NCBI GenBank assembly: GCA_026419775.2
Contig: JAOPGA020000643.1
Coordinates: 1 to 23,951, forward strand
Direction: 5' to 3'
Source: Acrasis kona
Lineage: Eukaryota > Heterolobosea > Eutetramitea > Acrasida > Acrasidae
DNA length: 23,951 nt
Under the pieces are notes generated by a model. That model worked only from the letters and a program-made list of their open reading frames with translations. It was not told where the DNA came from and ran no database searches. The translations under genes and the position numbers were made by a program. Of the stretch, positions 8,047-23,951 are shown piece after piece (position 1 is the stretch's first letter; the number at the start of each line of letters is the position of its first letter).

Positions 8047-9057
8047 ATGTACCATGGACTGTACTGTGTTAGTGCCTTTGACACTCAGCAAGAAGAGGAT
8101 TTGTTAGACAACTCGCTTTTTTTGAAAATGTACCAGAGAATTTTATCACAGATGACCAAGAACAGCAGCAAGAAAAATACATCTCTGAAAAAACTGAAAC
8201 TGTGGTTCAATTACATCTTGGTTGAGTTGAAAAGGAACAGCAAGAGAGCGCACAAAACCAAGCTAAAAGAGCGGTAAAAGATTGCACAAGGTTTCAACAT
8301 CAGACAGAGACCTTGCCAAGCAACTCAAGTTACAACTGTACAGTGAGTCCAGTCCCTTCAAACAGATCATTGTCTGCAAGAGATAATTTGGGGCAATTGG
8401 AAGCTCAGGAGTCACGCTTGAGGTTGTCTCCTGCTGGCCAGGCTGATAGGGAGTATGTTGACAGAGGAAGAGATGTTTACAATCATCATAACAGATGGTA
8501 ACCCTTTTACAAGTCAGAGAAGTAGGTCATATGATAGAAGAAGCCCTATCGCATACCACGGTAGCTCCTACAGCGGTGAGAGAGACAATAAGAGGTACTC
8601 TCACAGAAGATCACATAACAGAGAGCCCCCTAACAGATCATCATATAACATGTTTGAGAACTATGGAGGTACTCCCCAAGAAGGTCCCCTGAACGTAGGT
8701 CTACGCACAGAGATAGAAAAACACCACCAAGATCTCCAAATGGACATAGAAGAACATCAAGATCTCCAGCTAGACACAGAAAAACACAATCTTATATGTC
8801 ATCCTTCTTTTCGTCTCAAGGGTTGGGCTCCTACATTCCTTCCATCTGAATTCCTTATCGACAATGAAGTCTGTAGGGATGGTCAACGTATCTACGAGTA
8901 CATCCAAACCTCCTTCTCAAAAAGATATAACCCACCTGATCACCTCCCACCTATCCCCCAAGAATCAATTGATCTCCTCCGTCGTACTTCAACACCCTGG
9001 TTTGATGATGTTGTAACCAAAGACTTACAATGTGGAAGGTGGCATCTGAGAGATTGA
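8047..9057 (+). pseudogene. SR-rich (Arg/Ser) protein relic, probable retroelement ORF1-type
   Basis: Coding character passes through several frames. VSAFDTQQEEDLLDNSLF leads, after a run of seven T, into ENVPENFITDDQEQQQEKY, is interrupted by TGA at 8223-8225, and continues to 8501. Between about 8505 and 8675 the next frame gives RSRSYDRRSP and NKRYSHRRSHN. From about 8676 to 8849 the earlier frame resumes with RYSPRRSPERRSTHRDRKT and SRSPARHRKT. The frame to 9057 then adds a non-SR tail (GWAPTFLPSEF ... STPWFDDVVTKDLQCG). The repeated RS/SR dipeptides are a real compositional domain, of the kind used in RNA or protein binding. The frame switches show it is broken. It directly precedes the reverse transcriptase relic, so I infer it belongs to the same element. 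Confidence 0.45.
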
Positions 9058-9193
9058 AGTATGCAGTTCCGGGTAAGTTCCACGGTACTATAAATACAGA
9101 ACATACTATGTAAATAATATATCAAATAAAACAGTAACAAGCAGTTTGATACAAGTCTCCCTGTTACTAATACTATACATCTCATTATCCTCA

Positions 9194-11060
9194 ACAGATG
9201 ACACCACCTCCGCCTTCTCTAAAGCAGTATCCACCGAGGAATAGAAGGAGGCCATTGAAAATACTTCCGGCACTCCTAGCATCGATGGCATTCATGGCAA
9301 ATTATGGACCTCCCTATCATCAGAATTTCATGATCATCTAGCCATTGTGGCCACCAGAATCTTGAGAGGAGAAGAAGAAATCCCGGCGTCCATGAAAGAA
9401 GCATTTGTATCGCTTATACCCAAAACCTCGAACCCCTTAGACCTACTACACCTCTCAAAATTTCGTCCTATCGCTGTACTACCCGTAATATACAGAGTGT
9501 TGTTGGTCATTATCAACCGGAGACTGATGGATGGCCTGATGGAATCACACACCCTGTCAATCTTCCAACGGGGTTTCATCCCATCTGGATCATGTTCTGA
9601 TCTGACTACCACAATGCTCGCTTTACTATCGGACGCGAAAAAACAAAAATAAGACCTATTCCTCTCACTCATCGACTTCACAGACGCATATGGAAGTGTT
9701 GTACATGAACATTTGTTCAATCTACTACCTCTTTTGAGCCTCCCACCCCAAGTTACCTCTCTTATCAGATCGATCTACAAAGACCACACTATTCAAGTTC
9801 GTACTGCTTATGGCCTCACTGAGAAGATTCACGTTACCAGAGGTGTCCTACAGGGCAATCCTCTCAGTCCCACCATTTTCAATTTGTACATTGAAATTAT
9901 TTTCAGAGCACTAATGGAAGAGGACAAGAAAAGCCTAGGTGGCAACCTCCTTGGCTACAAGATCCCCCACACCCCATCTCTACCTATCATGGGTTATGTT
10001 GATGATCTCACACTAACCTCCAACAACCTCATTAGCCGTAATTCCAAACCTTTGTCTCACCATCAATGGTTCTAAAAGTATTCTCATATCCTATCTTCAC
10101 AAAGGCGGTAAAGTGATCATGGGTGATGATCTATACTCTGACTTCACCATACACAAGGACATTAACCTACCTTGGAGTTACCTCGGGATCATGTTTACTT
10201 TTAGACCCACTGTCACCCACACCAGAGATAGAGTTAAAGCCCGTTTTCTCTCTATGCTACCACCCCTCACCTCCCGCCTGCTACACCCCTGTCAAACTAT
10301 TTCCATGCTCTCTACCATCAAAGGAGGGGTCACTCGATATTTCACAAGTCTTGGTAATATCTCACCGTTAGTATGGACTCATGTTTTAATAACCATGTCA
10401 GACGACTCCTGCACTTCCCTCCTACCTGCCCTACCTACCTACTCCACAACCCTCGTTCCCTTGGTGGTCTGGGAATGGATCCTGCGTGGGTGATCGCTAC
10501 TATTTCCCGCATTTGTAACCTGCTCTGTACACTCAACTGCTCCTTCATGCGAGCCGCAGCTGCCACCGCTAACCTCCTCAAACAAGCGACCAAACAGACC
10601 TCATCAATGACTTCACAGGATCCACTTGTATCATCCCTGGCGATGTCTGCCATGGATTTGCGTTTAGCAAGATACAAACACAATACCAACTACCTGCTCT
10701 CCCTATCTACAGGTAAAGAAGCTATTGTGGATAGTGGGAGAATTGATCCCTTCCCCGAGACCAATGCCCCCCTTCTCAAGGTTACTGTCAACGCCTCTTT
10801 TGTCAACAGCAACGAGCCCGCTGGTGTAGGAATTGTAGTTACCGATCCTCAATCAAATAAATCATTCATTCCAGAGCATTACAAATCCCTCCATGCGATA
10901 GTTCTACACATGCCGAAATCATTGGAGCCATCATTGTCATTAAAGCACTTCCAGTCAATCAAAAGGTATGTGTTTATTGACAACCAAAGTGCAGTACGGA
11001 TGTTTCAATTATCGGAGCGGACCGGACACCTCTCAAAGACCTTCTACTACCTGGCGTCAT
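9194..11060 (+). pseudogene. Non-LTR retrotransposon reverse transcriptase with RNase H, decayed
   Basis: Reverse-transcriptase blocks appear in order: AIENTSGTPSIDGIHGKLW; SLIPKTSNPLDLLHLSKFRPIAV; QRGFIPSGSCSD; LIDFTDAYGS (first catalytic Asp); RGVLQGNPLSPTIFNLY; and GYVDDLTL (YVDD catalytic pair, near 10000). A thumb-like region with NPRSLGGLGM follows, then a C-terminal RNase H-like domain (AGVGIVV, THAEIIGAI with the catalytic Glu, FIDNQSAV with an Asp). Breaks seen: TAG 9242-9244, TAA 9650-9652, frameshifts near 10055 and 10375, and two compensating shifts around 10880-10975 that throw the RNase H Glu block out of frame. No endonuclease domain was found upstream. It cannot encode an active enzyme as read. 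Confidence 0.8.
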
Positions 11061-15213: not shown

Positions 15214-15970
15214 TCATTTGAAAAATGAGTTATCTACTGTAGCTAAACAACCAGGTATAAGCTGCTCAATATAATTGATCATATAATGACTACAAACATA
15301 GTTGTTTTGTTGTTGATTAACTTGTAAAATTAATAGACAGTACTTCAACGCTATCAACTTTTAAACACATCATGAGCTCCTTTATGTTGTTGAATATTGT
15401 GTTAATTTCAGTTTCACTTGTCAAATCTAATTTTGAGTCCAGATAGCATATTGACTTGTCATCAAGGTTTATAACTACAAGTATCCAGTGGTTTTTTAAA
15501 TTGATTGGAAAAAATAATTTTTTCTTCTTTTTAATATCAATTTGACTGAACTTCTTCCTGTTAGAAAGGAGATCACTACTTTCAATTAAAGTCCAATAAT
15601 GAAACAAACTAAAAAATAAGCATGAGGATGATTTATGCTCTGATGACTTAAAATATAAATATACATTTACAATGTTATCATTAAACCAGCCATTAGTCAA
15701 AATTCTATTAGCATCTGTCTTATGGAAATCTGGTTTACTAATTATAATGTTAGGCATGTTGTTAATTAATGAGGTATTATTATTATACCAACCATTTAAA
15801 AAGAAATTGCTCTTAGGGGTCTTATCGGTAGTGGCCGGTGATCTAATAGGAAAATTATCGGCTAACGGGCCTTCTCCAGCAAAAATTATCGGATTTTGTA
15901 AGATATCAAAAAGATATCGGTACCATCCGATAACATCTGATAATAAAGAGGTGGAGAGAATATGGCGCAT
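15214..15970 (-). pseudogene. Ulp1-like (C48) cysteine protease, one frameshift before the catalytic Cys
   Basis: The minus-strand frame 15970-15317 has an N-terminal region without recognised domains. It then shows the Ulp1 order: NGWFNDNIVNVYLYF (the W-L-x-D-x-x-I-N-type block), LFFSLFHYW, FFPINLKNHWILVVI with the catalytic His (codon 15488-15490), and ICYLDSK with the catalytic Asp (15437-15439). The frame stops at 15317. One base of shift continues as VNQQQNNYVCSHYMINYIEQL, supplying the Gln-rich oxyanion segment and the catalytic Cys (15292-15294), to a TGA at 15214. Ulp1-type proteases cleave SUMO-like conjugates, and many transposons and viruses encode relatives. Coding character appears to extend upstream of 15970. 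The shift may be real decay or an assembly error. Confidence 0.6.
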
Positions 15971-16138
15971 GAAGTATGTAAATGCCTCACCAATTATGAC
16001 TGCAAGAACAAAATATTGGCTGTTACTTGTGATAACGCATTTGTTTCAAGCTCAGACACACAAGCAACAACAAGAACACGTGACAACACACACCGTGACT
16101 ATAAAACAACATTGATAAAATCTTTGTTTATTCATTAA
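15962..16138 (+). CDS. Short Cys-rich open frame, hypothetical
   Basis: ATG at 15962 opens 58 codons beginning MAHEVCKCLTNYDC, followed by a Thr/Arg/Asp-rich tail, ending TAA 16136-16138. It overlaps the antisense 5' region of the Ulp1-like frame, so only one of the two can be the selected reading. The Cys spacing (C-x-C-x5-C) near an ATG could be a first exon of a zinc-binding protein, but there is no second exon or domain to support it. Confidence 0.2.
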   Translation: MAHEVCKCLTNYDCKNKILAVTCDNAFVSSSDTQATTRTRDNTHRDYKTTLIKSLFIH

Positions 16139-16640
16139 TAATCCATGATCTGAGGGAAATCAAGGTTTTCATTGTTTCCACGTGAAGAGAAAACCTTCTA
16201 TGACCAAGTACATCTCTTCCGCTACTGAAGCAGCGCTCTACAGAAACTGAGGCACAAGGTATAGCTAAATAATCGCGAGCAACGCGAGCCATGACTGGAT
16301 ATTCCGTCTGGTGATCTCTCCACCATTGGAGAATGTTGCATTCCTCTGAAAGATTGAAATAATTTGAGTCAAAATATCGATCAACGTCACTTGTTTTAAA
16401 TGATGCTTTTTGTTTGTTTGTAAGTATTTTGCTAAAAAGTCCTTTTGGCTCTGTTGTATTCACAGCCAGATCAGATTCTTGTGGGTACATCTTATTTAAT
16501 TTGTTCTTCAAGTGTGACTTGATATCATTGACATCGTCTTCATGACAGACTTGTTCAATTAAACTCATCTTGAATCTTGGGTCAAGGGAGGCTGCAATAA
16601 AATAGGTGTCATTCGCATCCATTCCATCATAGTACTCCAT
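16128..16640 (-). pseudogene. hAT transposase, C-terminal part with dimerisation domain
   Basis: About 170 residues on the minus strand. The segment FIAASLDPRFKMSLIEQV is the usual A-x-x-L-D-P-R-x-K block of hAT transposases. A linker follows, then the hAT C-terminal dimerisation domain: ILQWWRDHQTEYPVMARVAR, YLAIPCASVSVERCFSSG and LISLRSWI. The catalytic DDE core that should precede it is missing, and stops lie just upstream in frame, so the copy is 5'-truncated or deleted. A complement of AATAAA lies near the 3' end. No terminal inverted repeats were identified. Confidence 0.85.
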
Positions 16641-16952
16641 CGATTATCAATAAGACCCCTAATTGCTCTTTGTTGGTAAAGGGTTATTCAACCAAGCATT
16701 ATAAATCTGATTAAAGAAGTCAGCTGCACTATAGTGTGGCATTACTCTTCTACTAACAAGACTGTATTAAACAAAATGCAGCGTTTCAGCGCGTGGCAGA
16801 ACACTCAAACACAATGATATCAAAGTGGTGAACAATTGTCTTAATGGGAATTTACAAAGGTGTTTTTCATTATAGACATCCTTTGCTGATATTACATTGT
16901 CACTTCCAAGAGCTTTATTAAATGTACATACATAATTGATTTAGAGTTCTTG
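16641..16952. other. Non-coding interval containing repeat copy B
   Basis: No convincing frame was found. The interval contains a 10-bp palindrome CACTATAGTG (16727-16736) immediately before the dispersed repeat at 16741-16798. Confidence 0.4.
16741..16798 (+). repeat. Dispersed repeat, copy B
   Basis: Matches 13775-13851 with three mismatches and lacks its 19-bp segment. It also encodes ITLLLTRLY followed by a stop (TAA here, TAG in copy A). Both copies are in the same orientation about 3 kb apart. Confidence 0.7.
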
Positions 16953-17325
16953 TCAGATCTGATTATACTTTGTGCTGTTAATTGGTAATATCAAAGCACA
17001 TTGGTAATGTTGGTTTGTTGTTCCACCACCAAATAAATACACTGTACAGAGTGGATTCTGCACAGTTTGCATTTGTTGTATTTGATGTGGAAATGTTGCT
17101 TCTGGGTTGAACACATAAATTGCAATTTGATATATATCAGCTGCAAAAATGAGATCATTCTGCTCCCAATATCGGTTTTTAACATTAGGTAGTTGTTGAG
17201 CTTTATCAATACAATGTCGGATATCATTATGAGTAATTGCACCATAATTGACAGTATCATTACCGAACAACTCGGCTTTCATAGCAGCTTTTTTTTAAAA
17301 ACAGAGATGAGCCTGATAGTTTATT
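16953..17325 (-). pseudogene. OTU-like cysteine protease relic
   Basis: The minus-strand frame 17282-16953 encodes AELFGNDTVNYGAITHNDIR, then NRYWEQNDLIFAADIYQIAI, YVFNPEATF, and finally YLFGGGTTNQHYQCALIL. The W-x-x-x-x-D-L-x-x-A-A-D-x-Y-x-I-x-I-x-V-F order, followed by a terminal H-Y before a hydrophobic strand, resembles the second half of OTU deubiquitinase domains, with catalytic His in NQHYQ. Upstream, across a run of eight A on the minus strand, another frame gives SGSSLF, at the place where OTU proteins have D-G-x-C-L-F. The catalytic Cys is not seen there. I infer a degraded OTU-like domain. Confidence 0.45.
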
Positions 17326-17329
17326 GGTA

Positions 17330-17981
17330 GTTTTACAACCCCTGTCAATGGTTATTGATGAGTTACCTTACACAAAAAATTATATATACAAATCACCGGT
17401 GATTAAAAATAATTTTTCCCAAAATGGTTGTAAGTGACACAGTTGAGTTGACTTGTGTAAAGTCATCAATATACATGTCATGAGCATGAAGACTATTTTA
17501 TCATGTATATTACCTATTCATCAAATGGTATAAAGAGTGTTCTAAACGTAATTAGGTATTGTATAATGAACATTCTATTAGTATTGTTCAAAAGATATAT
17601 AATTATCAAACATTCTATTAAACAATCGTTTGGCGAAGTCCTGTACAAACCATCGGTTTCTTTANAGTTCATTAAGCGCCTACAGGCGCAAACCCTTAAT
17701 AACCCGTTGGGTTAGGTCCTACTAATTAAACATNACACTTTCATTACATTTCATTCGTCACATTGTTTTGAATGTTACTTTTATTAAACAAATTGGTTTT
17801 TTTTACTTTGATGGCTACGTACTGATTCTTATTCTACGTGCCTTCACTTCACAACATCAAAACTAAAAGATACAGGGACGTGCAGCTTATTTGGTCGGAT
17901 AATTAAAATCTGAGACAAGCTAAGTGATGAATTAATTAACTATATTTATTAAAACTAAATTTATATTATTTAATATAGTAA
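17330..17981. other. AT-rich non-coding interval upstream of the transposase gene
   Basis: No gene is supported; the open stretch at 17503-17715 crosses the hairpin cluster and has no domain. It contains three compact hairpins (17647-17713) and two N positions (17665, 17734). It may hold the promoter or one end of the element that encodes the large transposase. Confidence 0.4.
17647..17713. repeat. Cluster of three short perfect hairpins
   Basis: AAACC-ATC-GGTTT (17647-17659), GCGCCT-AC-AGGCGC (17676-17689) and AACCC-GTT-GGGTT (17701-17713) lie within 67 bases. Each has a 5-6-bp perfect stem and a 2-3-base loop. They may be a structured RNA, a hairpin-type mobile repeat or a transposase-recognition region. 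Confidence 0.5.
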
Positions 17982-18053
17982 TTTTTGACTTCTAAAAATA
18001 ATTGTGACTATTTATTTGCCGAGGTGCTATGTATTAATAAAAACGACTGTACA

Positions 18054-21000
18054 ATGATGCTAGCACCATTCAATAACAATAATGCAAATAAGTCGTTCGT
18101 CCTATGTACATTTTGTAATCAACCACAGTCATATGCAAATGCTGCGAGGCATAAAAATACATGTAAATACAATCCAGCCAAAGTTAATGAGTTAGAAGTA
18201 TGTGCTGGTCTGCCATGTGATGTATATAATATTCTTATCAACCCAGCTGGTCACATTTTAGGAGGCACAACGACAATCACATCACAAATGGACTACAATC
18301 GGGAAATGATAGCCACCAAGTCTGAAGATCAATTATATTCAGTATCATGCACCAGTATCAAGCAAAACAGATCTGATATCTGTCATTATTGCGCACAATT
18401 GAAACGAATCTTGACTCAGAAATTGAAAAGATTGCCAGATTCTAATAATCGTGAACAAATGTTAAAAATGAGAACTCCAAACGATACACCTCTTCTTGCA
18501 ATGGCAAAGATCAATGCATTGACAAGTGCACTTACAGAAGAAAGAAAGAGAACAATACAGTACTCAAGTAATGTGAGCGAAGCAATTAATGAGGAGCGGA
18601 AAAGCTTGCAAGAATCATTTGCAATTTGTGTTCAACAAGGTCAATTGGATCGTAACTTCAAATACTACATGTTGAAGGACATGTTCCAAAATATGCAACG
18701 TTCTAACTATAGTGTGAGACACAATCCTATAATGTTACGTTTCTGGCTAATTACTCGGTATTATGGTGGCTCTAAAGTTTTTAATATCCTTGGGGGTCAA
18801 CGAAACAAAAAGGATGTCAAAAAGTCAGAACAAACAAACAAGAACTCCAATTTTATAGTACCTTCAATTCGCACTTTGAAAAGTCATTCTCCACGAGGAT
18901 GGTATGGATTCATTACCAAGGAACAAATAAATATAATTCAAGATAGCATCGAAAAAAAAAGGTTATTAGATGACTTTATATCTCCATACTTTATTATTGC
19001 TTATGATGATATGGATGTGCGCCCTGGTTACGAAATATGGAGGGACTTTATAGTTGGTAGTGAAGAGTTGATCACTTTTGAAGAGTTTGAAACTCTTAGT
19101 GAGGTTGATCTTGATAAAAGAATGGGAAACAAGATGTGTGTTTTCAAAGCAGTCAGCGTATGCGGCAAGGTAACAGTTCCAGTTGGGTTGTGGGTCCATC
19201 ATGATACTAGACAGAACGATAACNAAGATGATTCTTAGATTATTCAAAAGCTAAAGTTCATAGCTACAGAGTTAGAGAGTGATGGATTTCAAGTTATTGG
19301 TAGTAGTTCAGATGGAGATTTAGTCCATAATGAGAACTTTGTAAAAGAAATGAAAAGATGGAACTTGGCACGAAAAAATAAAAATAAATGGCTTCATCTG
19401 TTTGATGCTGAGCATCTTGCCAAATCGATTAGAAATGCCTTAATTAGAAGGACTTTCTTTGATACTGTAAATAGTTGTGACAAAGAAAATGACATTGTAA
19501 AATTTGAAATGTCAGACCTTGTAGATTTGTTTAGCAGCAATGAATGCAATTTGTCTGAATATTTGACAACCAACGATCTGTCTCCAAGTGATATTATGCA
19601 ATTTAAACCGTTAAAGAATCTTGTTGCTGATCAAGTTGTAAGTGCATTAGAGTCATCAAAGTCTCCTGTTTCAAAAGCTTTGTCTTTGTTCCTCAAAAAT
19701 ATTAGAAATATTTACGAAATTCCAAGAATAAGCAATGTAGAAATGCCGTTAAAAGATAAAGTTAAAGAATTGCAAAATACAATGGCTTACTTTCAACGTA
19801 TTCAAGATGTAGATATTGAGGGTGTTGTTAAAAGAAGTTACAAATTTGACAAAAGAACTCTATTTAGAATCATCAGCTTCTGTTCAACTGTTAAAGAACT
19901 GATAGAATTTTTAAATAAACACCCTGACCCAAGAGTTGCAGAGAATGTACTTTTGTCAGCTTTATCAACATTATGTGTTGAGCACCAATATTGTGTTGTT
20001 CGATCTAAAGTGCCATATCCAACTGTGAGGGAGTTTATTAACACATTTGCTTATGCATGGTGGGTGTTACAAAACATTCATTGTGATAAAAAAGAGAGAG
20101 TATTCAACATGCCGCCACCTGCTCCAACTAGGTATTACAATACGCTTTGTGTTGTACTTCCATTGCCTGAACTTCCTACACCTTACAAGACACCAAAAAG
20201 AAGAGTGAACAGTCTCAAGCTCTCTAAAGCTAGTCTTGAAAAACTTAGTCAAAGGACAGCAGGCAGACATGATCCAACACCAAGAAATATCCATGCTCAC
20301 CGATCCTGTGTCCTTTATCAGTGCCTTTATGACTCCTGTGGTTATAAAGCATACAAGTTGCTTGGTGCTCTTGTAACTCATCTAACAAAAGACCATGCAA
20401 AAGAAGTGAAAGCTAGTGGAAAATCTGCAAAGGAGCTTGGTAACGAGATACAAAGGTGTTCAATACTGAAACACATTCAAGCTCAATTGGCCCACCGCTC
20501 TCAGTCTGCGGATTTAGATAGAAAACAGAAGCTAGATGTAATTTATCTTGCAGCTAAAAGCATTGTCAAGTCTGTTGTCCATGAAAAAGATTTACATCTG
20601 GAAGACAAGCCGATTGATAAAGAAGTGTTCTCTGCAAGTTTACAAGAGCCTGTATATGTTGACCATAGGATAAGTGCAGATCATATAAAGTTAGATGAAT
20701 CGTGTTTATATAATGGTGAACGGTACCACATTGTAATTGTTGATATTGAAACTACCGGATTTGCAAAAAATGCAGGCATTGTACAGATAGCAGTGAAGTC
20801 TTTAAATGATGATTGTATTGGAACAACTCTTGTCAATCCTGCCCCTTATGTTGCACCAGTTATTATAAATGGAAGTAACGCTGCAATGTGGAGTTTAAAA
20901 GCTATAACCGATGCACATCAAATTACTCCCTCAATGGTAGAAAGAGCTTGTGATATTGAGGTTGGGATAGAAAGTTTATGTTACTACTTAACTGTGGACC

Positions 21001-22505
21001 AAACGGCTGTGCCAATTATTATNGGACACAATTGTAAATTTGACAAAGCACGGTTAGATTACTGGGCAAAAAAAACAAACATTGAGGAGTGGAGTACTGA
21101 TTGGCTGTGGTTAGACTCAATGAACCTGTTGGATGCAGTCACTATCAAAGGCAAGAAATCTAAAAAATTGAAAGATTTATTTGTATCGTGCTTTGGGGAG
21201 GAAGAGTACAAGAAATCGTCACATCATAGANCAGAGTGGGATGTTCAAATGACATTTGATGTATTGCAACATAAACACAAAAATGTCAGAGAAGTGGTTA
21301 TGGCAAAATTAAAAGAATTAGGAAACCTCCTTGAAGAAGATGGTGATGAGTTACAAGAGGATGAAATTGCTCCTGAACCTTTTGAAGATAATTCAGAGTC
21401 AATAAATGACATGTTTAATGAAGGCGCCAATAATGATGACATTGCAGATGATGATGGAGATAGTGAAAATAAATGTAATGACAGCAATTATGGAAGTGAT
21501 GGTGAGGATGACTGCACAATGATTAATGATTTGAACCTTACGTCATCTGCAAAACGAAGTAGGCCTGTGGATACAAGTAAAGACAAAAGACCAAAAATAG
21601 AAGATGCCGGTTATTGTGCATGTATCAGCAAATGTAAAACATACAAATGTGTCTGCAAGGCAGCAAAAAGGTTTTGTTCTGTCAATTGTCATAAACAACA
21701 AAAAAAGACACAGTGTGAGAACAATAGTGCTACACCAGAAGAACGTGTTAAGTCCTACCCTGATCACGTTGATCTTACTAAACCAGGATTTCAACTAAAT
21801 GTCTCAACAATGTTATCTGGTCTCAATAAGATTTTTGAGAACGGAAACTATATTTTAAGAGAGTATCACAGTTCGGATAAGGGTGTGTATGATGAGAATG
21901 AGATTTATGAGGATATACATCATCTTTTAGAACACAATGATTATTGTTATTATACATTTTTGATGAACAGACACTATACTTCACTCACGTGCATTAAGGA
22001 AAACAACATCATTTACTGTGTGTATTTTGACTCGATTTCAGTTAATTATCAACTTGAGACAGCACTCCAAGAGATTTCAAATAATCATGACGACTTTAAA
22101 CTTCAGCGCATGTTCAAAAAAGGATTCCAAACAGATGGGTGGAGTTGTGGTTATTGGGTGTTGGTAGTGGCGAAAGCTGTTTTTAAATATTTTAGCCAAA
22201 ACGAAATGTTGAGACTCATCAAATTTTTTATATTTGATATGAGCACTGAGCTAGCATTTCTTTTTGCAGACCAAACAGAGTTATACTTGAACACAATATA
22301 CTTGTCTGACATTGAACCTCACGCATTTGATAGAATGCACTATGAAAAGAATTATGTTTCATATGAAACCTCAAATCTTCGAACAGGTCCGTTTGACAAC
22401 GTATTAAAAGATAAAAGATTTTTAGACGAAGAGTGTAAAACAATCCAGTTCAGTGAAGAAATAAACTGTGATACTGCAAAAGAACAAAAAAATTCAAAAC
22501 AATAA
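18054..22505 (+). CDS. Transposase-exonuclease-CXC-Ulp1 protease fusion, one in-frame TAG
   Basis: A single frame opens after a TAA at 17979, has its first ATG at 18054, and ends at TAA 22505. The only internal stop is TAG 19236-19238. Domains in order (nt): C2HC finger C-x2-C-x11-H-x3-C (about 18100-18160); CHYC pair and helical region; P/THAP9-like DDE core with YDDMDVRPGYE (19002) and, beyond the TAG, SSSDGDLVHN (Asp 19311) and FDAEHLAKSIRNAL (19401); DEDDh exonuclease with DIETTG (D 20742), NCKFDKARLD (D 21042) and H-x4-D (H 21225, D 21240); acidic linker; CXC-like CACISKCKTYKCVC (about 21610); and Ulp1/C48 protease with RHYTSL (H 21972), YFDS (D 22029), Q (22128) and SCGYW (C 22146). The exonuclease and protease catalytic residues all look intact. 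Ns occur at 19224, 21023 and 21231. The third transposase acidic residue is not assigned. Confidence 0.7.
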
Positions 22506-22506
22506 A
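22501..22506 (+). terminator. AATAAA overlapping the stop codon
   Basis: AATAAA contains the TAA stop of the fusion gene. Such compaction is common in transposons, and this could be its poly(A) signal. Confidence 0.35.
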
Positions 22507-22550
22507 TTTTTACCACAGATGTTACTTATTCTTACTATTTCATGCATGAA

Positions 22551-22560
22551 TATATATAGA
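22551..22560 (+). promoter_or_regulatory. TATA-like box before the dioxygenase gene
   Basis: TATATATAGA lies 78 bases before the ATG at 22638 in the 132-bp spacer between the two genes. It suggests that the downstream gene has its own promoter. AT-richness makes chance occurrence likely. Confidence 0.3.
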
Positions 22561-22637
22561 AAGTATGTGTGGCACGCTTCTTTCATAGGTTTTAAATGGT
22601 TTAAAATTTCTATCTTCTTTCTTTGTTTATTGTAAAA

Positions 22638-23894
22638 ATGGGAGCAAGCAAAAGCGAACAAGCAAAGGCAAAGAAGAGGAGGATAATCAACAAACGTTTC
22701 AGGGAAAACAACCCTGAATACCATAAGGTTTACTATCGTGAAAAAAAAGCTTCTAATGCAACAAATTTGAAGAACAACAGCGCCATTCTTCAAAGAATTG
22801 ATAGTGATATCTCCGAAAATGCGGTACAAAAGATTCTAGTACCCTATCCTGTGGATGCCCTACGTTCACAATTATTTAAAGTACCAGAGGAACAAGAGTG
22901 GATAACTGTAGCTGATGAGAGACATGTTGTGGCTACAACAAGCGGTGAATCTGACACAAAATTAATCGATTACCGCCCAAACTACGTCCAAAAGGAGGTT
23001 GGCGATAACTTCCTTCAAATTTGGAAAGAAATTGGAGACAGTGATTTATTTACTGAGAAGGATTTTGATGCAACAAGAGGCAACATTTGTGTACACGTTG
23101 GAATTGCTAAAGAATTCTATACAGGCAGATGGTGTGTGTCAGGGCACTACAAGAAATTAATGAGCTCTTCATTTGCTGATAAAGTTCTTTTATCACTGCA
23201 TCAGATTTGTAATGCTGTCGTAGAACATTTACAAAAGCATGACACTGTTACGCTCACTACAATTCAACAAGGATTGTCTTTATTGCCACCAAAAGTTCGT
23301 GAAGAGTATCCATTTGCGTTACCAAACATGTTCATAAATATTCGCAACTCTACATGTAAGTTACACACTGACAATAACGACGCGGCTGATGTTGGTGGGA
23401 TATTGTTTGTTTTTAAGAGCAGTGATTGTAGAGGTTGTTACTTGTCTTTCCCAACCTTGAAGATTCATTACGATTTGGGCCATTGCGATATGGTAAGGGC
23501 ACGTTTCAAAACATTACCGCACATGAACACTGACTTTATAAGCGGCAATAGAGTATCAATTGTTTGCCCTTTACATGAGCGAATTATAAATCTCTGTTAT
23601 AAAAAAGCGGTTGAAAATGGAGAAGTTACACAAGAGAACTATGGGAAGATATACTTGATTGGCAGATTTGATGAGAAAGAAAATCTAATGAAACTCATTG
23701 GCCGTAAAAATATACTTGCATTCAACGGAACTAAAAGTAATGTATCAAAGGCACGTTCTCGTGGAGCTTTTTCAATTGCGGTGTGCACTGAGCCAACTTG
23801 GGAAGCAGCAAAGAAAGCTTCATTCTCAAAAAAATATAGTGTTTTCAAAGCATTAGTTGACAAAAACATCTCGCTTGTCAACATTAGTGGTTAG
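22638..23894 (+). CDS. TET/JBP-like 2-oxoglutarate/Fe(II) dioxygenase
   Basis: I use the ATG at 22638 rather than the upstream non-ATG codon; the product is 418 residues, ending at TAG 23892-23894. Residues 1-40 are strongly basic (KAKKRRIINKRF, YREKK) and may bind DNA. The catalytic domain lies around residues 210-315: NIRNSTCKLHTDNNDAADVG carries H-x-D (H243, D245), then GCYLSFPTLKIHYDLGHCDM, then TLPHMNTDF with the distal His (H295), and GNRVSIV with the 2-oxoglutarate-binding Arg (R305) ten residues later. The order matches, from memory, the TET/JBP-type enzymes associated with fungal KDZ transposons, which oxidise 5-methylcytosine or thymine. All ligands are present and no frame breaks are seen. 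Same strand, 132 bp after the transposase fusion. The frame stays open after the TAG to the window end. A generic 2OG oxygenase is the alternative. Confidence 0.6.
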   Translation: MGASKSEQAKAKKRRIINKRFRENNPEYHKVYYREKKASNATNLKNNSAILQRIDSDISENAVQKILVPYPVDALRSQLFKVPEEQEWITVADERHVVATTSGESDTKLIDYRPNYVQKEVGDNFLQIWKEIGDSDLFTEKDFDATRGNICVHVGIAKEFYTGRWCVSGHYKKLMSSSFADKVLLSLHQICNAVVEHLQKHDTVTLTTIQQGLSLLPPKVREEYPFALPNMFINIRNSTCKLHTDNNDAADVGGILFVFKSSDCRGCYLSFPTLKIHYDLGHCDMVRARFKTLPHMNTDFISGNRVSIVCPLHERIINLCYKKAVENGEVTQENYGKIYLIGRFDEKENLMKLIGRKNILAFNGTKSNVSKARSRGAFSIAVCTEPTWEAAKKASFSKKYSVFKALVDKNISLVNISG

Positions 23895-23951
23895 AGAATG
23901 TGTTGGGTGAAAGGGAGTATTCCTGATACTAAGGAATTCGAATACAATTTG

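Follow-up and report, generated by a model that had tools for sequence, protein, structure and literature searches.

The window analysed here is the whole of contig C314 (JAOPGA020000643.1; 23,951 nucleotides) from Acrasis kona; C149, C919 and similar labels denote other contigs of the same 37.35-Mb assembly. Two adjacent genes on its forward strand encode a transposase fusion protein and a predicted TET/JBP-like dioxygenase. Our analysis suggests, with a probability of roughly 72%, that these two genes make up the coding content of a single autonomous element of about 6.4 kb that moves by cut-and-paste, P-like in its transposase and with the dioxygenase as a TET/JBP-like cassette. The pair had been singled out in an original prediction made from the window alone, and its two open reading frames (ORFs) were located as described, at 17982-22505 and 22605-23894.

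The complete element and its short derivatives

A complete copy of 6396 bp is present at C149:108436-114831. It starts with CAGGGACGTGC at 108436 and terminates with the reverse complement at 114831, giving CAGGGACGTGC...GCACGTCCCTG ends. This pair of terminal inverted repeats (TIRs) encloses both the transposase fusion gene and the dioxygenase gene, in agreement with the DNA transposon that had been proposed. Both frames are open in C149, with 1507 codons for the transposase fusion and 455 codons for the dioxygenase; the first product, of approximately 1480 residues, is predicted to contain a transposase core, a DEDD exonuclease, a Cys cluster and a Ulp1-like protease. Positions 17867-23951 of the window are 99.4% identical to C149:108430-114514, and 17873-23951 represents the left 95% of the transposon. 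The element is longer than first noted (17982-23894): its left end lies at 17873 and its right end about 317 bp past the contig end.

The window copy itself is damaged. Its transposase frame is interrupted by a TAG where C149 has Trp and contains three codons with N, and its dioxygenase lacks the last 28 residues of the C149 version because one base is missing near 23887. In a third copy, on C919, the right end is present and the transposase part is open, with an interrupted dioxygenase.

Shorter, non-autonomous copies provide evidence of mobility. A search with the end pattern located 10 sites in the genome; the terminal 220 bases used as a query matched 10 times and the terminal 272 bases 15 times. 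Seven candidate stretches were examined for target-site duplications (TSDs). Exact 8-bp TSDs flank the copies on C250, C379 and C652 (AACATTGA, GACATTTA and TTGATTAT), and on C37 the 8-bp sequence AAGATTCT flanks the copy on both sides, provided that CAGGACGTGC, which has one G fewer, is taken as the left end. TSDs of 8 bp are thereby seen in four of the seven copies, one of them with an altered left end. A scan of C863 and C178 found the right end only, and of C51 the left end only.

The 752-bp copy on C250 corresponds to C149 in its left end (1-145), a middle block (396-547) and its right end (564-752), and other copies of about 0.75 kb have similar blocks. The middle block begins at the stop codon of the transposase gene and extends 23 bases into the dioxygenase gene. 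Since these blocks are kept, the ancestor of the derivatives would have had a first gene followed by this spacer, the dioxygenase start and the right end. Three of the derivatives (L037, L038 and L041) contain the right subterminal sequence a second time, in inverted orientation, at about 212-255 of the 0.75-kb copies.

Several observations on the copies speak against the proposed unit. The original prediction proposed a search for other copies within shared TIRs and TSDs; C149 does carry both genes between TIRs, but its flanks (TTAATATA / GTGATAAG) show no 8-bp duplication, and it is the sole complete two-gene copy. Beyond the 23 bases, the non-autonomous copies contain no recognisable transposase or dioxygenase coding sequence. 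Furthermore, the same spacer-plus-dioxygenase block is found on C257 with the same start point and different upstream sequence. Given these two observations, the first gene of the ancestor need not have been this transposase.

The dioxygenase and probable cytosine methylation

The second gene had been read as a 2-oxoglutarate/Fe(II)-dependent oxygenase with H-x-D, a distal His and R-x-S. The motif was borne out in an alignment of 16 long relatives selected from the same genome, in which H254, D256, H306, R316 and S318 are invariant in all 16. Two of these relatives match Tet_JBP (E = 0.0065 and 0.019, below cut-off). A link to TET enzymes also comes from a second dioxygenase type, located downstream of related transposases: in one hhalign comparison it aligned to the window-type profile with E = 1.2e-5 and a probability of 81%, with the active-site residues matched. 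Of three members of this second type, one matches Tet_JBP at 3e-5 (below cut-off) and all three give weak matches to WelO5, another dioxygenase family. Its best PDB match is CcTET (8jkk, 7vpn; E = 0.12).

The searches with the window type itself count against this assignment: there is no direct Pfam match, the PDB gave only irrelevant weak matches (dipeptidases, E >= 0.11), and the 16-member profile matched nothing in the PDB. Nonetheless, the conserved residues and the second type together make it very probable that the window gene encodes a divergent TET/JBP-like enzyme. It shares the HxD...H...RxS order with CcTET/NgTET-type enzymes and differs from them in having no PDB match by profile, a basic N-terminus and a C-terminal part that may be BRCT-like. 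The conserved C-terminal part matches the BRCT protein Mdb1 at E = 0.11; in the second of the two PDB chains listed, a designed TIM barrel, no stretch of residues is matched, and Pfam BRCT gave no match in this part. An AlphaFold2 model of the window dioxygenase alone was uninformative (mean predicted local distance difference test score 34). Two other Tet_JBP matches below cut-off, at C474:13442-14368 and C299:6020-6946, have a basic N-terminal region similar to the one in the window dioxygenase (39%, weak E).

Differences between the copies point to a possible substrate. All 27 differences counted between the C149 and window copies of the element are transitions; 10 of them are at CpG, which accounts for 216 of 6049 sites (p = 1.4e-8). 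Between C149 and C919, 7 of 25 differences are at CpG and 5 of 25 are transversions; for the window and C919 the counts are 5 of 18 and three. In addition, C5-methyltransferase domains over the Pfam cut-off occur on six contigs. Together, these observations agree with a methylation of cytosines in repeats that a TET enzyme carried by a transposon could oppose, so an anti-silencing role fits as well. The dioxygenase would most likely oxidise 5-methylcytosine at copies of the element, and oxidation might allow the element to remain transcribed or to escape CpG decay. A point against a role specific to the element is that among 43 aligned repeat pairs, which are not independent, CpG enrichment (p < 0.05) is seen in 33 and not in 10; CpG decay is thus general here and not peculiar to the element. 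As to the methyltransferases, the match at C224:81742-82227 lies within a 2081-codon open frame, and C143 and C486 carry near-equal matches, which may belong to a repeated or mobile gene.

The chemistry could also be different. The enzyme might make a lasting modified base, as JBP and CMD1 do, or act on N6-methyladenine or on RNA, and not lead to demethylation. The distance of the family from characterised TET enzymes, evident from the lack of a PDB match, speaks for such a possibility, as does the variety of chemistries among TET/JBP relatives. The available text of Kojima 2025 (PMC12730594) raises a similar doubt for divergent fungal TET types. Still, we regard it as rather unlikely, given that the CpG differences and C5-methyltransferase domains indicate that 5-methylcytosine is available as a substrate, and that the two proteins of the element show no further recognisable base-modifying function. 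The proposed anti-silencing function is testable, because an intact copy, broken copies and enzyme-less derivatives coexist in one genome with apparent CpG decay of repeats.

The transposase fusion protein

The first gene had been described as a P/THAP9-like, non-KDZ transposase fused to an exonuclease, a Cys cluster and a Ulp1 protease. In a Pfam scan of the family (6 sequences from 5 loci, matches to E <= 10, to which the Pfam results of this section refer), no transposase domain was found in any of the six: neither the P, hAT and KDZ models nor, specifically, the hAT dimerisation region, the hAT RNase H or the KDZ (Kyakuja-Dileera-Zisupton) transposase domain gave a match. This upholds the exclusion of KDZ, and the VEH and HLxKSxRN blocks of the protein are not known as a KDZ pattern. 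KDZ transposases are large and have Cys clusters, and Zisupton has a Ulp1 domain; both features are shared here. So are the 8-bp TSDs given for Zisupton in the available text of Kojima 2025 (PMC12730594).

The family core was compared with the P transposase core, confirmed against 6p5a. With this one sequence hhalign gave E = 0.0063 and a score of 27.7, against a best score of 24.1 among 92 other ORFs of at least 200 residues (first 700 residues each; one of them a DDE_Tnp_4 transposase), so P tops all 92. The local alignment pairs, in order, AYDDM with AFDEM, SSDGD with VSDLG, FDAEHLAKSIRN with FSDTPHLIKLVRN and VEHQYCVVRSK with VEHFFGSMRSR, so in this alignment the D, D, HLxKxxRN and VEHxF blocks of the P element and THAP9 stand in the same order. 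The third and fourth blocks are 191 residues apart in P and in three of five family cores; the first two spacings differ more between C149 and P (101 against 73 and 33 against 37, by printed start positions). P elements have CA..TG ends and 8-bp TSDs, and the element has both. It differs from them in its lack of a Pfam match to the P model and to the THAP zinc finger, which is common but not universal at the N-terminus in the P-element superfamily; the N-terminus of the C149 protein carries a C-x2-C...H-x4-C motif.

Other results on the core weigh against a P assignment. The score of 27.7 only slightly exceeds the highest among 100 shuffles (26.2). A forced global alignment scored -1.6, with 11.2 as the highest among 100 shuffles, and this speaks against similarity over the full length. 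The spacing of the last two blocks is 198 residues on C539 and 195 on C231. The P family PF21787 had no match in this genome, but it had none in any control genome either, so this is no proof of absence. Judged by the block order and the weak profile alignment, the transposase is probably P-like; this supports the P/THAP9-like blocks of the original prediction, while membership of the superfamily is less secure.

The transposon could be the same TET-bearing element with a transposase outside the P superfamily, either a divergent hAT type or an undescribed superfamily. Such an assignment would agree with the missing Pfam P match, the weak local and failed global alignments and the variable block spacing, and 8-bp TSDs and CAGGG ends are typical of hAT too. 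Moreover, hAT and P share one clade of RNase H-like proteins according to the available text of PMC3985635, which also places P relatives outside animals in Amoebozoa and Chromalveolata. We nevertheless consider it unlikely: Pfam detects the hAT domains in an unrelated ORF of the window and in none of the six family sequences, the local alignment to 6p5a takes in the D, D, HLxKSxRN and E blocks one after another, and P outscores every one of the other ORFs.

The fused parts differ in the firmness of their assignment. The exonuclease is firmly predicted: RNase_T is matched by five of the six sequences (best E = 9e-9), the sixth being a fragment without that region. The match is over the Pfam cut-off for C231 and under it for the C149 protein (E = 0.0041), and in the PDB the region matches a polC-type chain at E = 6.6e-4. 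For the Ulp1-like domain, profile A4 aligns H, D, Q and C in catalytic order with 7fiu (E = 0.088). This is the best of six PDB chains matched at E <= 5, all weak, of which three are Ulp1-type (7fiu and two XopD chains); Peptidase_C48 was matched by none of the six sequences. The Cys cluster was read by eye and matches TCR in one sequence (E = 1.2). The predicted fusion thus stands best for the exonuclease, and for the protease by its catalytic order. We know of no P element with C-terminal exonuclease, CxC and Ulp1-like domains or with a second gene.

In the mechanism that we propose, an RNase H-like transposase, most likely a divergent member of the P-element superfamily, would recognise the CAGGGACGTGC ends and insert the element with 8-bp duplications; the ends and TSDs are observed. 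The fused DEDD exonuclease, CxC cluster and Ulp1-like protease may trim ends or process proteins.

Gene pairing, probable cassette exchange and further contents

Pairing was assessed genome-wide after merging hits at most 1.5 kb apart. With 45 of 51 transposase matches used (the six weakest dropped), 26 loci were obtained; 87 of 101 window-type TET matches gave 58 loci and 56 of 73 Pfam-type matches gave 55, two lists that may overlap. At 11 of the 26 transposase loci a TET-type gene lies within 3 kb, in each case with one downstream on the same strand. It is of the window type on C149, C314, C919, C736, C59 and C815, of the second type on C361, C539, C677 and C919 (a second element), and a Pfam Tet_JBP gene on C558; C736 has an additional window-type match upstream on the opposite strand. 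From the genome-wide lists alone, with the second type left out, 7 of the 26 loci have such a gene, compared with about 2% if placement were uniform, an expectation that is rough because repeats cluster. Less favourable are the 15 loci with no TET-type gene nearby, several of which are fragments; the second type is visible only in fetched stretches. Transposase copies consistently without a dioxygenase neighbour, which would have spoken against the original prediction, are accordingly not what is seen. Although nested repeats are abundant in this genome, a DDE_Tnp_4 element on C366 apparently lies inside a dioxygenase gene and TET loci are many, we consider it very improbable that the two genes are chance neighbours (through nested insertion, or as a host TET or viral gene beside a transposase), since they share the C149 TIRs, phage records gave no match, and chance is hard to square with TSD-bearing derivatives that keep the junction and with a gene order repeated at several loci well above expectation.

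The partner of the transposase is not always the same. From the left end through the transposase, C361 and C149 share 68% and then 75% DNA identity, whereas their dioxygenase regions show no similarity above shuffles (25 against 31). Over the transposase end and dioxygenase, C361 agrees with the second kind of element on C919 at 96.9% over 2.9 kb, so this pairing is also multi-copy. The right ends of the two element types both have TAGTTTCACCGC near the terminus; the score (28 against 31 for 200 shuffles) is within the shuffle range, and the likeness by position is only suggestive. Relatives have a dissimilar TET-type gene at this position, which gives the dioxygenase the appearance of an exchangeable cassette; one transposase lineage carries at least two such genes there. 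This offers a natural comparison of two unalike dioxygenases with the same transposase and slot.

Relatives of the window dioxygenase also adjoin two protein families judged by eye to be CMC-like transposases. For the C656 type, 20 of 21 matches were used and merged into 17 loci, three of which have a TET-type gene within 3 kb; for the C235 type, 42 of 52 matches gave 32 loci, seven of them with such a gene. In three of these seven pairings the gene is on the opposite strand, and one of these three, on C815, was also counted for the P-like locus there. For the pairs on C235 and C656 the best inverted repeats scored no higher than 20 shuffles each. The independent acquisition of the dioxygenase that had been suggested is no more probable than transfer between elements, as related dioxygenases lie beside other transposase types and cassettes appear to be swapped. 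The DDE_Tnp_4 gene on C366, read as a Harbinger-type carrier, was rejected, as dioxygenase fragments lie on both sides of it. On C257 the order is DDE_Tnp_4, an unassigned frame and dioxygenase. Two loci (L024 and L026, on C543 and C949) have dioxygenase fragments in common as well as 3.1 kb at 98.9%, with large frames lacking a significant Pfam match, and are perhaps another carrier element. With 73 Tet_JBP matches at E <= 1, of which 19 are over the Pfam cut-off, besides the window-type loci, the predicted TET/JBP expansion is large for a 37-Mb assembly.

The assumption that TET genes outside KDZ transposons would be new is outdated. The available text of Kojima 2025 (PMC12730594) describes TET/JBP genes in 11 DNA transposon lineages of fungi, passed between superfamilies. 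Shared with those elements are a TET/JBP gene inside a DNA transposon, several superfamilies per genome, movement of genes between elements, divergent TET types and a proposed anti-silencing role. The hosts there are all fungi; in the present genome Fungal_trans had no match, but the control genomes gave none for this family either. The transposase here is P-like with exonuclease, CxC and Ulp1-like parts; P is not among the lineages given, and 'P element' and 'Ulp1' have no occurrence in its main text. The available portions of literature on P elements, protists and TET genes, including PMC12477816, hold nothing on this pairing beyond Kojima 2025. As far as we found, the combination has not been described for this transposon type, and TET-bearing transposons are already known in fungi. 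Among 5.8 billion protein sequences searched, none matched the dioxygenase, the C149 transposase or alignment A1. If confirmed, the element would extend TET capture to a new transposase type, possibly beyond fungi. A wider claim, to which we give slightly less than even odds, is that in this non-fungal eukaryote at least two CMC-like families, and a P-superfamily transposon to which exonuclease, CxC and Ulp1 domains are fused, each took up TET/JBP genes and exchange them as cassettes. TET capture would then be a means of countering silencing that is general among eukaryotes and not peculiar to fungi.

Table 1. Features of the element in the window, with the basis of each assignment
Feature	Position	Strand	Basis
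Target-site duplication, expected place (8 bp of left flank)	17865..17872	.	TSD length from non-autonomous copies; right partner beyond contig
Left TIR CAGGGACGTGC, element start	17873..17883	+	C149 homology from 17867; C149 TIR pair; ends of non-autonomous copies with 8-bp TSDs
Transposase fusion gene	18054..22505	+	First ATG 18054, frame open from 17982; TAG at 19236-19238, open in C149
RNase H-like catalytic core, P-like blocks	19002..19985	+	hhalign of family core with P element 6p5a
Core blocks YDDM (D 19005), SSDGD (D 19311), DxEHLAKSIRN (from 19404), VEH (E 19980)		+	All four aligned in order to 6p5a
Predicted DEDD-type 3'-5' exonuclease domain (RNase_T)	20733..21263	+	Pfam and PDB matches
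CxC-type Cys cluster	21610..21690	+	Translation read by eye; conserved in alignment A2; Pfam TCR in one sequence
Ulp1-like Cys protease domain (His codon 21972, Cys codon 22146)	21800..22230	+	Catalytic order; weak PDB matches
Intergenic spacer	22506..22637	+	Retained in non-autonomous copies
Predicted TET/JBP-like 2-oxoglutarate/Fe(II) dioxygenase gene	22638..23894	+	HxD 23364-23372, distal His 23520, R-x-S 23550-23558
C-terminus of dioxygenase gene, possibly BRCT-like, truncated by 1-bp deletion near 23887		+	Profile match to Mdb1; comparison with C149
Start of region 3' of dioxygenase gene	23895..23951	+	C149 alignment, right end at C149:114831; contig stops about 317 bp before element end

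The remainder of the window holds other repeats and part of a host-like gene. Remains of a hAT element with a hAT dimerisation region (E = 1.3e-19) lie on the minus strand at 15317-17294; adjoining it are a frame for a Ulp1 protease, which matches Peptidase_C48 at E = 1.1e-14, and another with a weak OTU-like match (E = 0.03). Remains of a reverse transcriptase like that of long interspersed nuclear elements are found at 8815-11055 and are 77-83% similar to a copy at C149:117014-119103. The last part of a host-like gene, in which a bromodomain (E = 1.6e-16) and a poly-Q tract are encoded, occupies 2-841.

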